Positions 215 through 51,602 of a stretch of DNA of 51,610 bases are shown here, one piece after another. The notes beneath the pieces are model-generated. The model saw only the letters and a list, made by a program, of their open reading frames with translations. It did no database searches and was not told where the DNA came from. The position numbers and the translations under genes are program-made. Origin of the DNA: a virus. Each line of letters starts with the position of its first letter. Positions within the stretch are counted from its first letter, which is position 1. The stretch is from positions 1-51,610 of IMG/VR virus record IMGVR_UViG_3300023181_000037. One strand, given 5' to 3'.

Positions 215-223
215 TGTAAACAG

Positions 224-270
224 TGGTCGCGCTAGGAATCGAACCTAGATCTAGAGTTTAGGAAACTCCT
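224..270 (-). other. attP: tRNA-Arg(CCU) 3' half; probable attP core
   Basis: The minus strand shows a CGCGACC acceptor strand plus A, a perfect T-arm (CTAGG, TTCGATT, CCTAG), a 4-nt variable region, and an anticodon arm with loop TTCCTAA, giving anticodon CCU. The 5' half is not conserved: the D-arm degenerates after AGGGGATA and no matching 5' acceptor strand is found. A tRNA 3' half beside int is the usual form of attP in phages that integrate into a tRNA gene. The expected host target is therefore tRNA-Arg(CCU). No complete tRNA is claimed. Confidence 0.75.
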
Positions 271-333
271 ATAATTTATCCCCTGTGTTGTGGGCTGGGC
301 GCGGGGGCAAATGGTTGGTAGTAAAAATGTCCG

Positions 334-2949: not shown

Positions 2950-3234
2950 TTAAATGTCGTAGAGGTTAAATCGAACGCATATCGCATGTATCGCCGGAAT
3001 GGCGCGGAAGGTGTAGGTTATTCCGTCCTGCTCATTGAACTGATACACATAAGGTTGCCCCTTGAATACCTTCCCTTTGGTGGCCTTAGCTACGGCAATG
3101 GCTCTCCATTCAGAAAATGACAGTTGCCCCGTGCGGCGAAAATCATCGTAACATTCCGAAAGAAATTCCCAGGCATCACAAGAATATTCATTACGTGATT
3201 TTCTTATCTGTTTTTGATGAATTACTTTTATCAT
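2950..3234 (-). CDS. Hypothetical basic protein, 94 aa
   Basis: Begins with a basic segment (MIKVIHQKQIRKSRN). No recognised motif, signal peptide or membrane span. It lies between small genes of the same strand with 12-20 nt gaps. Confidence 0.55.
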   Translation of the reverse strand: MIKVIHQKQIRKSRNEYSCDAWEFLSECYDDFRRTGQLSFSEWRAIAVAKATKGKVFKGQPYVYQFNEQDGITYTFRAIPAIHAICVRFNLYDI

Positions 3235-49224: not shown

Positions 49225-49572
49225 TTATTTATTTAATGCTGTTACGATATTGAATGCGGCAGCTTCATTGCAGGCAGTAGCGTAGTGGAAGCCTTCGCAA
49301 GTTACAACAGCCAATTTATTACGCTTACCTTGCCGGAATGGATAACCTATAGGCTTACAAGATTTCATTTCCCCCAAACCGGTACGCAGCCAAGAAATGT
49401 TTATGTCAGGGAATATGCTGTTAATGATCTCCGCTGTTTTGAAAGATATTGCGGTGTCACGGCTTATTGCTCGGTAGATTGACGCATAGTCTAATCCGCA
49501 TAATCGAGCCAATTAGCCAGCATTGATATTCTTATCTTCTAAGAGCATTTTGTAAATTCCAGCAGCCTTCAT
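49225..49572 (-). pseudogene. HTH regulator interrupted by a TAA codon
   Basis: Starting at ATG 49572 the frame reads MKAAGIYKMLLEDKNINAG, then TAA (49515-49513), then LARLCGLDYASIYRAISRDT and on to 49225. The stop splits an HTH whose second half resembles the neighbour's N-terminal domain (both have an ISWLRTGLGEM / SESWLQSGRGEM end). CAA to TAA would restore Gln. A TTG right after the stop could allow a restarted 95-aa product. Confidence 0.65.
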
Positions 49573-49661: not shown

Positions 49662-49835
49662 ATGGCCAGACCCCGTAAATCAGAAGAAGATAAAACAGAA
49701 CCATTGAACCTGCGCGCTGAAAAGGAGCTGAAAGATCTTTTGCTAAAGATAGGTGCGACCCGTGGGGTTAAGTCATTCATCGGGGTTATTCGATTACTGG
49801 CTACGGAAGAGGGGAAGAGGCTTGAAATTAAATAG
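49662..49835 (+). CDS. Small basic DNA-binding-like protein, 57 aa
   Basis: ATG at 49662 to TAG at 49835. Basic start (MARPRKSEEDKTEPLNLRAE) and two predicted helices (KELKDLLLKIGATRGVKSFI, GVIRLLATEEGKRLE), a ribbon-helix-helix-like arrangement. Divergent from the broken HTH gene and followed at once by the promoter box at 49836. Probably a regulator of this control region. Confidence 0.55.
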   Translation: MARPRKSEEDKTEPLNLRAEKELKDLLLKIGATRGVKSFIGVIRLLATEEGKRLEIK

Positions 49836-49843
49836 TATTTTTG
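49836..49843 (+). promoter_or_regulatory. TATTTTTG -7 box, first RNA unit
   Basis: Exact TAnnTTTG beginning directly after the stop of the 49662 gene. Predicted start near 49850, within AAATAAAAAGCCC. Confidence 0.5.
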
Positions 49844-49849
49844 CATAAA

Positions 49850-49977
49850 TAAAAAGCCCTCACCGGTTGCGCCCGATGAGACCTGTGGCTCTCTTCATAA
49901 GAAGAGGCTGATTGTGATTAAGCGCACCGCCTAATCTACAGTAAACGAAAGCCCTGAGAGATCGGGGCTTTTTATTT
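49850..49977 (+). ncRNA. Candidate structured small RNA, unit 1
   Basis: AAATAAAAAGCCC (49847-49859) and GGGCTTTTTATTT (49965-49977) are a perfect 13-bp inverted repeat, so the RNA's ends can pair. Inside are CTCTTC/GAAGAG (49891-49896, 49901-49906) and GGTTGCGC/GCGCACC (49865-49872, 49922-49928, one bulge). The 3' end is a terminator, AGCCCTG (49950-49956) with CGGGGCT (49963-49969) and TTTTT. Pairing of the ends competes with the terminator. Confidence 0.5.
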
Positions 49978-49984
49978 AAATTTG
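49977..49984 (+). promoter_or_regulatory. TAAATTTG -7 box, second RNA unit
   Basis: Exact TAnnTTTG that begins at the last base of the T-rich tail of unit 1. Predicted start near 49991. Confidence 0.45.
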
Positions 49985-49990
49985 TATTAT

Positions 49991-50071
49991 GGACGGAGAC
50001 GCTTAAATTTACATCAATAGAACCTGCCACGCTTCCCGATGAACAGCGCACCCGGGCGGGTCTTTTTATTT
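49991..50071 (+). ncRNA. Candidate small RNA, unit 2
   Basis: About 80 nt from the predicted start to a weak hairpin, ACCC (50050-50053) with GGGT (50058-50061), followed by CTTTTTATTT (50062-50071). The same 10-base tail ends units 1 and 3. No protein frame. Confidence 0.35.
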
Positions 50072-50081
50072 CTAATCCCCC

Positions 50082-50158
50082 TCTAACTTCATAAGTGGTC
50101 GAATCTGACCGCTTATCTCGCGCCAGTAGCGGTAAATCTAACTTCATGGGAACTTCAT
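50082..50158 (+). repeat. Hairpin flanked by AACTTCAT direct repeats
   Basis: ATAAGTGGTC (50091-50100) pairs over 10 bp with GACCGCTTAT (50107-50116), one G-T pair. TCTAACTTCAT occurs at 50082-50092 and 50137-50147, and AACTTCAT again at 50151-50158. Could be a protein-binding array or an RNA element. Confidence 0.45.
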
Positions 50159-50202
50159 TTAGGAGCACTGAAAATTGAGCGCGCCTATTTTAGCAAAAAC
50201 TG

Positions 50203-50288
50203 TATCTTTAATATTCCACAATCCAAGTCAATTATAGAACTTGTCATGTTGCCGCCCCGATGCTCTAACATCGGGGCTTTTTATTTGC
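50203..50288 (+). ncRNA. Candidate small RNA, unit 3
   Basis: TATCTTTA (50203-50210, one mismatch) could start a transcript near 50217. It ends at a perfect 9-bp hairpin, GCCCCGATG (50254-50262) with CATCGGGGC (50269-50277), and CTTTTTATTT (50277-50286). No protein frame. Confidence 0.4.
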
Positions 50289-50306
50289 CTGAACCTCAAT
50301 AGTTTA

Positions 50307-50336
50307 GAGAGCGCAAAATTGCGCTCTCCTCTTTTG
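50307..50336 (+). terminator. Perfect hairpin before the int 3' end
   Basis: GAGAGCGC (50307-50314) pairs with GCGCTCTC (50321-50328), then CTCTTTT on the plus strand. It would stop rightward transcription 26 nt before the convergent int gene. The minus strand lacks a T-rich tail. Confidence 0.65.
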
Positions 50337-50361
50337 TAAGAATAAGCATGTTTGAATGTGC

Positions 50362-51561
50362 TTATTTAAAATGGTCATGCTTCAAAAGCAATTCGGCATG
50401 CTCTTCATCCGTCAGGCGTATGTACTTCATGAAGTTCGCAGTAGATTTGTGTCCAGTCACTTTCATTATAGAAATCATTGGTACACCCGCCTTAAAGGCA
50501 TTGGTGGCGAAGGATCTGCGCATTGTGTGTGTCCCAAGTAAAGAATGCTTCGGCACCCATCTTTCGACCTTTGCACCGCCTTCGGTTCGTGTGAAAAGCA
50601 CCTGCTTAGTCAGCTTCGCATCTTCGCCCAGGGTCTTTGCAAATTCCATAAATGGCGTGAGCTGAGGGATGGTAAACACCCCGGCATGCCGATCCCATAT
50701 CTCTTTAGCTACGGCATCCAGCGGCACCCATACGGCGGTAGTTGTCTTGGTGGTGTTGATGTTCACTACGTCCCCGTTCCTGTGTGCCGGGGTGAGCCGG
50801 TAAAGGTCACTGTGCCGCATGCCCAACCTGCAGCCCAGGATAAAGGCATCCCGCCACAACGCCTCTTTGCCCTCGTATTTGTGATCCAGGATCTTTTGCT
50901 GTTCCTCATGGGTCAGATAAACGGCATGGTCAATATCTTCCCGTTTGGCCGAAAATGCTTTTGTTTCCAGGATGGCCCCCTTGTGCCAGCCCAACCTCCG
51001 GCTACCATTATATACGGAAAGAATGGAATCCATGTAGCTAGCCACACTGTTCTTTGCCAATCCGGATTTTGTCTGCTCAGCTACGAAGGCCTTCATGTGA
51101 TCTTCCGTTAGAGTGGCCGGGTTCTCATTGGCAAGTGGTGACTTCTGAAGGCGGTTCTTTACCACATTCGCCACTTTGATAAAGGATGCGCTGTACTTCT
51201 TCCCGTCATTCAGGATCTGCCCGGCTTCTACCTCTTTGATGTATCGCTCAAATAGTTGGAAGAATGTTAGGGATGCAATTACCGGCTTTGCACGGGGCTT
51301 TTGGTTTGTTTCTTCCAGCACCAGCGCTTTTACATCCTCGGATCGGGTAGGCCTTCCGGCCTGTCTCATATCGACCTCGTAGTTATCAACGAGTGTTCCT
51401 AGCCGGCGAATTACAGCGGCTTGATCCTTGGGAAGTTTATTCTTTTGAAACAGGTCAACGTTCACCCGGAGCCCGGTGCTGACCTGCACCCGCCCATCGT
51501 GGCAAGAGTACTGTAAATAGACTGTTGTACGCTTCAGGTAGAAGGAAAGAGAAGTGGCCAT
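50362..51561 (-). CDS. int: Tyrosine integrase
   Basis: 399 residues. The catalytic set is complete: Arg249 (LGCRLGMRHSDL), Lys272 (TTKTTT), His345 and Arg348 (HTMRRS), His371 (TGHKST) and the nucleophile Tyr380 (FMKYIRL). A SAM-like core-binding domain lies at about 98-190 and an N-terminal arm-binding part before it, as in Bacteroidetes-type integrases. It recombines attP with a host attB, presumably tRNA-Arg(CCU). The 5' end lies in the terminal repeat. Confidence 0.95.
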   Translation of the reverse strand: MATSLSFYLKRTTVYLQYSCHDGRVQVSTGLRVNVDLFQKNKLPKDQAAVIRRLGTLVDNYEVDMRQAGRPTRSEDVKALVLEETNQKPRAKPVIASLTFFQLFERYIKEVEAGQILNDGKKYSASFIKVANVVKNRLQKSPLANENPATLTEDHMKAFVAEQTKSGLAKNSVASYMDSILSVYNGSRRLGWHKGAILETKAFSAKREDIDHAVYLTHEEQQKILDHKYEGKEALWRDAFILGCRLGMRHSDLYRLTPAHRNGDVVNINTTKTTTAVWVPLDAVAKEIWDRHAGVFTIPQLTPFMEFAKTLGEDAKLTKQVLFTRTEGGAKVERWVPKHSLLGTHTMRRSFATNAFKAGVPMISIMKVTGHKSTANFMKYIRLTDEEHAELLLKHDHFK

Positions 51562-51602
51562 ATTGGTAGTAAGCCCAAGGTAGTAAAAATGGTAGGCAGT
51601 TT
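51477..51602. repeat. Right copy of 126-bp terminal direct repeat
   Basis: Identical to 1-126. The eight bases after it (51603-51610) differ from 127-134. TTTACAGTACT at 51600-51610 is the reverse complement of 31-41, which looks like a fold-back artefact at a contig end. Confidence 0.9.

Follow-up and report, generated by a model that had tools for sequence, protein, structure and literature searches.

AbiF, a ribonuclease toxin of the HEPN type, belongs to a family related to the ancestor of Cas13. Its activity is blocked by the abiF RNA, and in C. difficile the RNA RCd22 binds the toxin in trans (PMC12373285). One RNA is bound per monomer by PbAbiF (PMC12737573; PDB 8vz6). An RNA antitoxin can also be copied by a phage, as in PhiTE, where a pseudo-ToxI defeats ToxIN (PMC3475682). 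The locus described here, which carries an RNA of the abiF type, lies beside the integrase gene in the DNA of a Bacteroidota phage; the window denotes the whole stretch that was analysed, 51,610 nucleotides long.

Organization of the convergent gap

The locus occupies a gap of 526 bp on which a short open reading frame and the integrase gene converge. The features of the gap and of its two neighbours are as follows.

49662 to 49835, plus strand: 57-aa ORF upstream of the RNA gene, function not assigned
49847 to 49881, minus strand: intrinsic terminator for leftward (int) transcription, hairpin of -15.2 kcal/mol followed by CTTTTTATTT
49947 to 49977, plus strand: intrinsic terminator, probably that of the 57-aa ORF, hairpin of -11.5 kcal/mol with a T tail
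49982 to 49984, plus strand: TTG, -33 element of the predicted RNA promoter (layout TTG-N19-TAnnTTTR)
50004 to 50011, plus strand: -7 box TAAATTTA, fitting TAnnTTTG, with 11 nt between it and the abiF motif
50012 to 50022, plus strand: 5′ leader CATCAATAGAA; similar AATAGAA/AACAATA leaders occur in loci L223, L283, and L289
50023 to 50061, plus strand: abiF-family RNA motif, with outer stem CCTGCC/GGCGGG, bulged A, inner stem CGC/GCG, and linker CACCCG
50062 to 50071, plus strand: U-tract CTTTTTATTT; a T-tract also lies 3′ of most bacterial copies of the motif and of many phage ones
50254 to 50286, plus strand: strong intrinsic terminator, hairpin of -17.0 kcal/mol with a T tail
50307 to 50328, no strand assigned: perfect palindrome GAGAGCGCAA/TTGCGCTCTC with a weak T tail, lying past the 3′ end of int
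50362 to 51561, minus strand: tyrosine integrase, int (PF00589, E 1e-9; phrog_1), convergent with the RNA gene

The earlier note had read this stretch as a tandem plus-strand array in which three -7-like boxes are each followed by a hairpin and an identical tail, with a fourth hairpin at 50307. The tail itself is exact: CTTTTTATTT occurs on the plus strand at 49968, 50062, and 50277, and four of its five exact copies in the 51.6-kb window fall inside 440 bp. The hairpin cluster is real as well, yet its units are not equivalent. Strong hairpins precede the tails before 49969 and 50278 (-11.5 and -17.0 kcal/mol), whereas the hairpin preceding 50062 scores poorly in ordinary folding on account of its bulged, abiF-type shape; the fourth is a palindrome whose T tail is weak. 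Moreover, a minus-strand copy of the tail at 49847-49856, part of the leftward terminator, had been overlooked; with it, the cluster is convergent and not simply tandem. Given the strong hairpins and the converging ORF and int, the array consists mostly of terminators between convergent genes: the hairpins of the gap other than 50023-50061 are ordinary terminators, that at 50254-50286 being probably an insulator against antisense transcription of int.

From the same layout the earlier note had proposed two to four distinct small RNAs made in series and acting on early or late phage mRNAs. Folding better than shuffled sequences at 49850-49978 (z -4.7) and 50210-50286 (z -4.2) would fit this proposal, but both values derive largely from terminator hairpins, the minus-strand one included. 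The unit 49991-50071, which does match an RNA family, scores z +0.5 against shuffles in ordinary folding. Nor do the boxes hold up as promoters. The one at 49836 is not preceded by a TTG at suitable spacing, that at 50203 (TATCTTTA) lacks a -33 partner, so that a -33/-7 pair is absent at both, and that at 49977 (TAAATTTG) is actually a -33 TTTG element whose true -7 box is TAAATTTA at 50004-50011. The unit at 50254-50286 has neither a promoter with a -33 element nor an abiF match, and the Rfam scan returned no second RNA family above chance. A series of mRNA-directed RNAs is thus very unlikely; mRNA targets find no support, and the likely target of the one RNA retained is a host toxin protein. 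The suggestion that a short RNA, perhaps a decoy, is made here stands for that single unit (about 50016-50071) and falls for the others.

Several further elements were recorded in and around the gap. Between the RNA and int lie a 10-bp inverted repeat (ATAAGTGGTC/GACCGCTTAT, 50094-50119) and three direct repeats of AACTTCAT (50085, 50140, and 50152), both possible protein-binding sites. The 57-aa ORF has no match in Pfam, PHROG, or PADLOC, and a minus-strand ORF at 49860-50168 has no significant family match. An attP site within 49836-50340 was considered and is less likely, because a better candidate is present on the far side of int: a sequence resembling a tRNA 3′-half (GGTTCGATTCCTAGCGCGACCA, about 223-281, minus strand), 5′ of int and with a strong terminator at 181, is the probable attP core. 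Upstream of the repressor, a small regulator gene (49225-49572, minus strand) contains an in-frame stop, TAA, at codon 20 (49513-49515), near the putative DNA-binding region; the remaining frame is open, and the gene is either broken or starts later. A near-terminal direct repeat of 126 bp (1-126 and 51477-51602) contains the int start. Its copies diverge beyond 126 bp (CTCGGAAT versus ACAGTACT), and AGTACTGTAAA within the repeat recurs as its reverse complement, TTTACAGTACT, where the window ends; these properties make circularity likely and the join uncertain. With regard to conservation, int, repressor, and endolysin have no close relatives among viral contigs, int has none among genome contigs and at most 30-40% identity to homologues in Chitinophagales and Sphingobacteriales, and a nucleotide search of phages with the window returned nothing.

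Assignment to the abiF RNA family

A permissive Rfam scan of 803 bp against 4227 families matched RF03085, abiF, over its full length at 50023-50061 with 26.0 bits and every pair standard. The score falls below the gathering cut-off of the family (37 bits), and with so many families scanned the match (E 0.03) is by itself merely suggestive. Independent evidence came from a covariance model, R1: based on 46 RNAs of bacteria and phages, drawn from matches in Chitinophagales genomes and IMG/VR with the window excluded, it finds 50023-50061 as its sole match in the 51.6-kb window, with 39.1 bits and E 8e-8, and its alignment, like that of Rfam, leaves all pairs standard. The consensus structure is present in full, with an outer stem of 6 bp, the bulged A, an inner stem of 3 bp, and a 3′ linker of 6 nt. 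The shortfall against the Rfam cut-off is not telling, since that cut-off is too strict for the subtype to which the window belongs: Rfam at E up to 0.5 omits the RNAs of loci L289, L290, and L292, all of which lie beside true Abi_2 genes, and gives virus contig L223 27 bits.

Covariation among the 46 aligned sequences agrees with this structure. In the alignment 99.5% of cells are paired and five pairs have changed on both sides; pair 8-36 is seen as C-G, A-U, U-A, and G-C with zero exceptions. The 3′ linker tends to vary with the same pair, C-G going mostly with CACC, U-A mostly with CACU, and A-U and G-C mostly with CAAA. The window has the C-G/CACC form, consistent with the covariation of the family. 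Taken together, the inner closing pair and the linker (columns 8, 36, and 37-42) resemble a code by which RNAs would be specific for toxin clades.

Sequence, structure, and covariation thus provide strong evidence that 50023-50061 belongs to the abiF RNA family, the antitoxin of AbiF/AbiD (Abi_2) toxins. Where the earlier note knew of no described phage element with such a layout, the middle unit represents a described one (RF03085). A second abiF motif near 50023-50061 was sought using R1 with filters off, and none was found; one had been considered in the third unit on account of a repeat (50017-50036/50234-50253) and is unsupported. Spot_42, rimP, sX12, and the other Rfam matches in the region are probably due to chance, the matched part being mainly terminator hairpins.

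The RNA gene and its closest copies

TAnnTTTG is the -7 consensus of Bacteroidota. In the window, TTG (49982-49984), a spacer of 19 nt, TAAATTTA (50004-50011), a further 11 nt, and the motif follow one another. The full TTG-N19-TAnnTTTR arrangement occurs four times in the window when both strands are counted, and on the plus strand only at 49550 and 49982. TAnnTTTG boxes show no enrichment (28 found, 40 expected). The same arrangement recurs at bacterial abiF loci: TAnnTTTR lies 10-13 nt upstream of the motif in 19 of 25 (about 0.012 expected per locus from shuffles), and a TTG lies a further 18-20 nt upstream in 12 of 25 (about 0.0008 expected per locus). A -7 box upstream of the motif is also found in phages L223 and L194. 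In the former the order is TTG-N19-TAACTTTG-N11-motif-U-tract, between apparent terminase and portal genes, identified as such by their sequence and by belonging to the terminase context. As judged from promoter spacing, transcription would start at about 50015-50018, and the U-tract at 50062-50071 together with the abiF stem is probably the RNA's own terminator. The stretch 50016-50071 can accordingly be read as one convincing promoter-RNA-terminator unit, predicted to yield a small RNA about 55 nt long.

The closest copies of this RNA lie in bacterial toxin loci and in a virus contig. The RNA of locus L289 is identical to window positions 50015-50071 at 52 of 57 bases, leader and U-tract included. 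Together with those of L290 and L292, likewise obtained by searching 395 Bacteroidia genomes with the model, it shares the TTCCC...GAACAGCGCACCCGGG subtype of the window, and all three lie directly upstream of Abi_2/AbiD genes, the toxin gene of L289 being classified by PADLOC as AbiD (7e-79). In L152, stems and linker are identical to those of the window and the RNA adjoins an Abi_2 gene (E 2e-56). Among viruses, contig L197 carries CCCGCCACGCTTCCCGATGATCAGCGCACCCGGGCGGGT, which matches the window by BLAST at 36 of 37 positions.

These comparisons bear on a simpler reading, in which the whole stretch, middle unit included, is a cluster of plain terminators and the abiF match a coincidence. 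The stretch does hold three terminators, two strong ones on the plus strand and one on the minus strand, and the initial Rfam match reached only E 0.03 over all families. Against this stand the R1 E value, the near-identity to the cognate antitoxin RNA of L289, a promoter whose spacing from the motif is the conserved one, and the conservation of unpaired bases for which a terminator has no use. For 50016-50071 the reading is largely refuted by these sequence data and comes close to being excluded.

An RNA without its toxin gene

In bacteria the abiF RNA usually accompanies its toxin gene, which is adjacent in 20 of 25 loci (8 of the 12 matches from 398 Chitinophagales genomes searched, and 12 of 13 in Bacteroidia). 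The order of the two can differ: in L144 the RNA (1501-1536) is downstream, not upstream, of the Abi_2 gene (510-1406). Solitary abiF RNAs with Abi_2 absent nearby also occur in Chitinophagales (L146, L147, L149, and L151); that of L151 adjoins a gene for a HipA N-terminal domain and that of L147 lies near an EAD11 gene.

The window contains neither an Abi_2 gene nor a remnant of one by tblastn and by HMM search over short frames, so that the RNA is not classed as a toxin-antitoxin system; a degenerate abiF gene was likewise considered and none was found. The same holds for most viruses that carry the RNA. A degenerate pattern retrieved from IMG/VR at least 104 contigs with fully paired motifs, a few of them possibly due to chance, representing at least 61 distinct sequences. 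Abi_2 is absent from 48 of 50 sampled virus records with the RNA, the exceptions being contigs L207 and L208, and it is also absent from such records of 120-187 kb. The difference in Abi_2 presence between virus records (2 of 50) and bacterial loci (20 of 25) gives a Fisher p of about 1e-11, a value that is merely indicative because the pattern is biased towards canonical stems, many of the virus contigs are fragmentary, and near-duplicates were kept among the 50. Four annotated phages, T7-like and T4-like ones among them, also have an abiF RNA confirmed by the model and lack Abi_2.

Aeromonas phage PZL-Ah8: RNA placed between the genes for connector and capsid assembly, Abi_2 absent
Salicola phage CGphi29: abiF RNA present, Abi_2 absent
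Rhizobium phage Pasto: RNA between spanin and capsid genes, Abi_2 absent
Synechococcus phage S-SZBM1 (L280): RNA at 3005-3041 in a tRNA cluster, Abi_2 absent

Proximity to phage tRNA genes is shared by S-SZBM1 and virus contig L197, where the RNA lies at about 2080-2115. No abiF RNA was found in 35 records of terminase relatives of the phage, many of them fragmentary, in a search run without a positive control. A DNA region of lactococcal phage sk1 is cited as protecting phage 712 from AbiF, according to the title of a reference in PMC12737573; abiF RNA was considered for both phages, and the R1 search found none, sk1 giving no match.

An orphan RNA could be a relic: a complete abiF module would once have been lysogeny cargo, its toxin gene would have been lost, and the RNA would persist as a leftover or as a guard against residual toxin. 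The RNA adjoins int in the lysogeny region, a common site of cargo; L207 and L208 retain RNA and Abi_2 gene together; AbiF modules are known in prophages (PMC12373285); and a recently lost module would look alike. However, tblastn and HMM searches show no trace of Abi_2 in the window, and its RNA is intact from the promoter through the two stems, the bulge, and the linker to the U-tract. In the T7-like and T4-like phages, moreover, the orphans lie among structural or tRNA genes, where former lysogeny cargo is improbable. On balance, such a relic seems unlikely.

Proposed role of the phage RNA

That many phages carry the RNA and no toxin suggests that it is a decoy disarming AbiF defence. We therefore favour, at a probability of roughly two in three, the view that 50016-50071 is an autonomous abiF-family RNA gene, a phage-borne mimic that would neutralise the AbiF of the host or of a competing element; the counter-defence function is proposed by analogy. 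The RNA would be made during infection or lysogeny and would bind in trans any AbiF/AbiD HEPN ribonuclease that the host, or a mobile element competing with the phage, encodes. AbiF bound in this way would stay inactive, and abortive infection would fail. Alternatively, the RNA might serve as an antidote to host addiction, allowing a lysogen or competing element to tolerate the loss of a resident abiF module rather than acting against defence in the lytic cycle. The location in the lysogeny region and the solitary chromosomal abiF RNAs of Chitinophagales are compatible with such a role, but the orphans of lytic-type phages point to a function during infection. The molecular action would be the same as that of a mimic, and only its timing would differ. 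We regard this alternative as quite improbable, somewhat more so than the relic.

Beyond this one locus, we think it probable, with a little less assurance than for the window, that orphan abiF RNAs serve as autonomous, dedicated antidotes to AbiF in both lytic and temperate phages of many lineages, that this constitutes a widespread natural form of counter-defence by RNA mimicry, and that the stem-linker subtypes track toxin clades. Among the open-access journal papers searched, no description of orphan abiF RNAs as anti-AbiF decoys was found. If they are antidotes, they would represent a common natural version of the RNA mimicry of PhiTE, aimed at a family at the root of Cas13, and the presence of abiF RNAs in phages without abiF would be explained. 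The inner pair and linker would then provide a sequence rule predicting which AbiF a phage might disarm.

Comparison with known systems

Like the RNAs of RF03085, exemplified by AbiFr of PbAbiF and RCd22 of C. difficile AbiF, the window RNA is a bulged two-stem hairpin of 37-39 nt with the conserved bulged A, the CA linker, a promoter and U-tract terminator of its own, and standard pairs throughout. Several differences exist nevertheless. Unlike at RF03085 loci, no abiF gene follows the RNA; unlike RCd22, which has two motifs, it has a single one; and unlike canonical members it belongs to a subtype with a longer apical loop, which Rfam scores under the cut-off. Set against the AbiF/AbiD systems (Abi_2, PF07751; L289, L290, L292, and L152; PDB 8vz6), the RNA is nearly identical and the toxin half is missing in the phage. 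An abiF RNA in a phage has a precedent in the abiF sRNA of cyanophage S-CREM1, which the accessible part of PMC9964418 reports as an Rfam match and interprets neither as a decoy nor as an orphan; S-SZBM1, which infects the same host, matches the same RNA and lacks Abi_2. The closest functional parallel is the pseudo-ToxI of PhiTE (PMC3475682), likewise a phage-encoded non-coding copy of an antitoxin without its toxin, as which the window RNA is proposed to neutralise an abortive-infection RNase. Toxin and RNA are unrelated in the two cases, and protection by the window RNA is a prediction. Furthermore, whereas PhiTE relies on short repeats expanded in escape mutants, the abiF orphan is a complete motif carried by many natural viruses.
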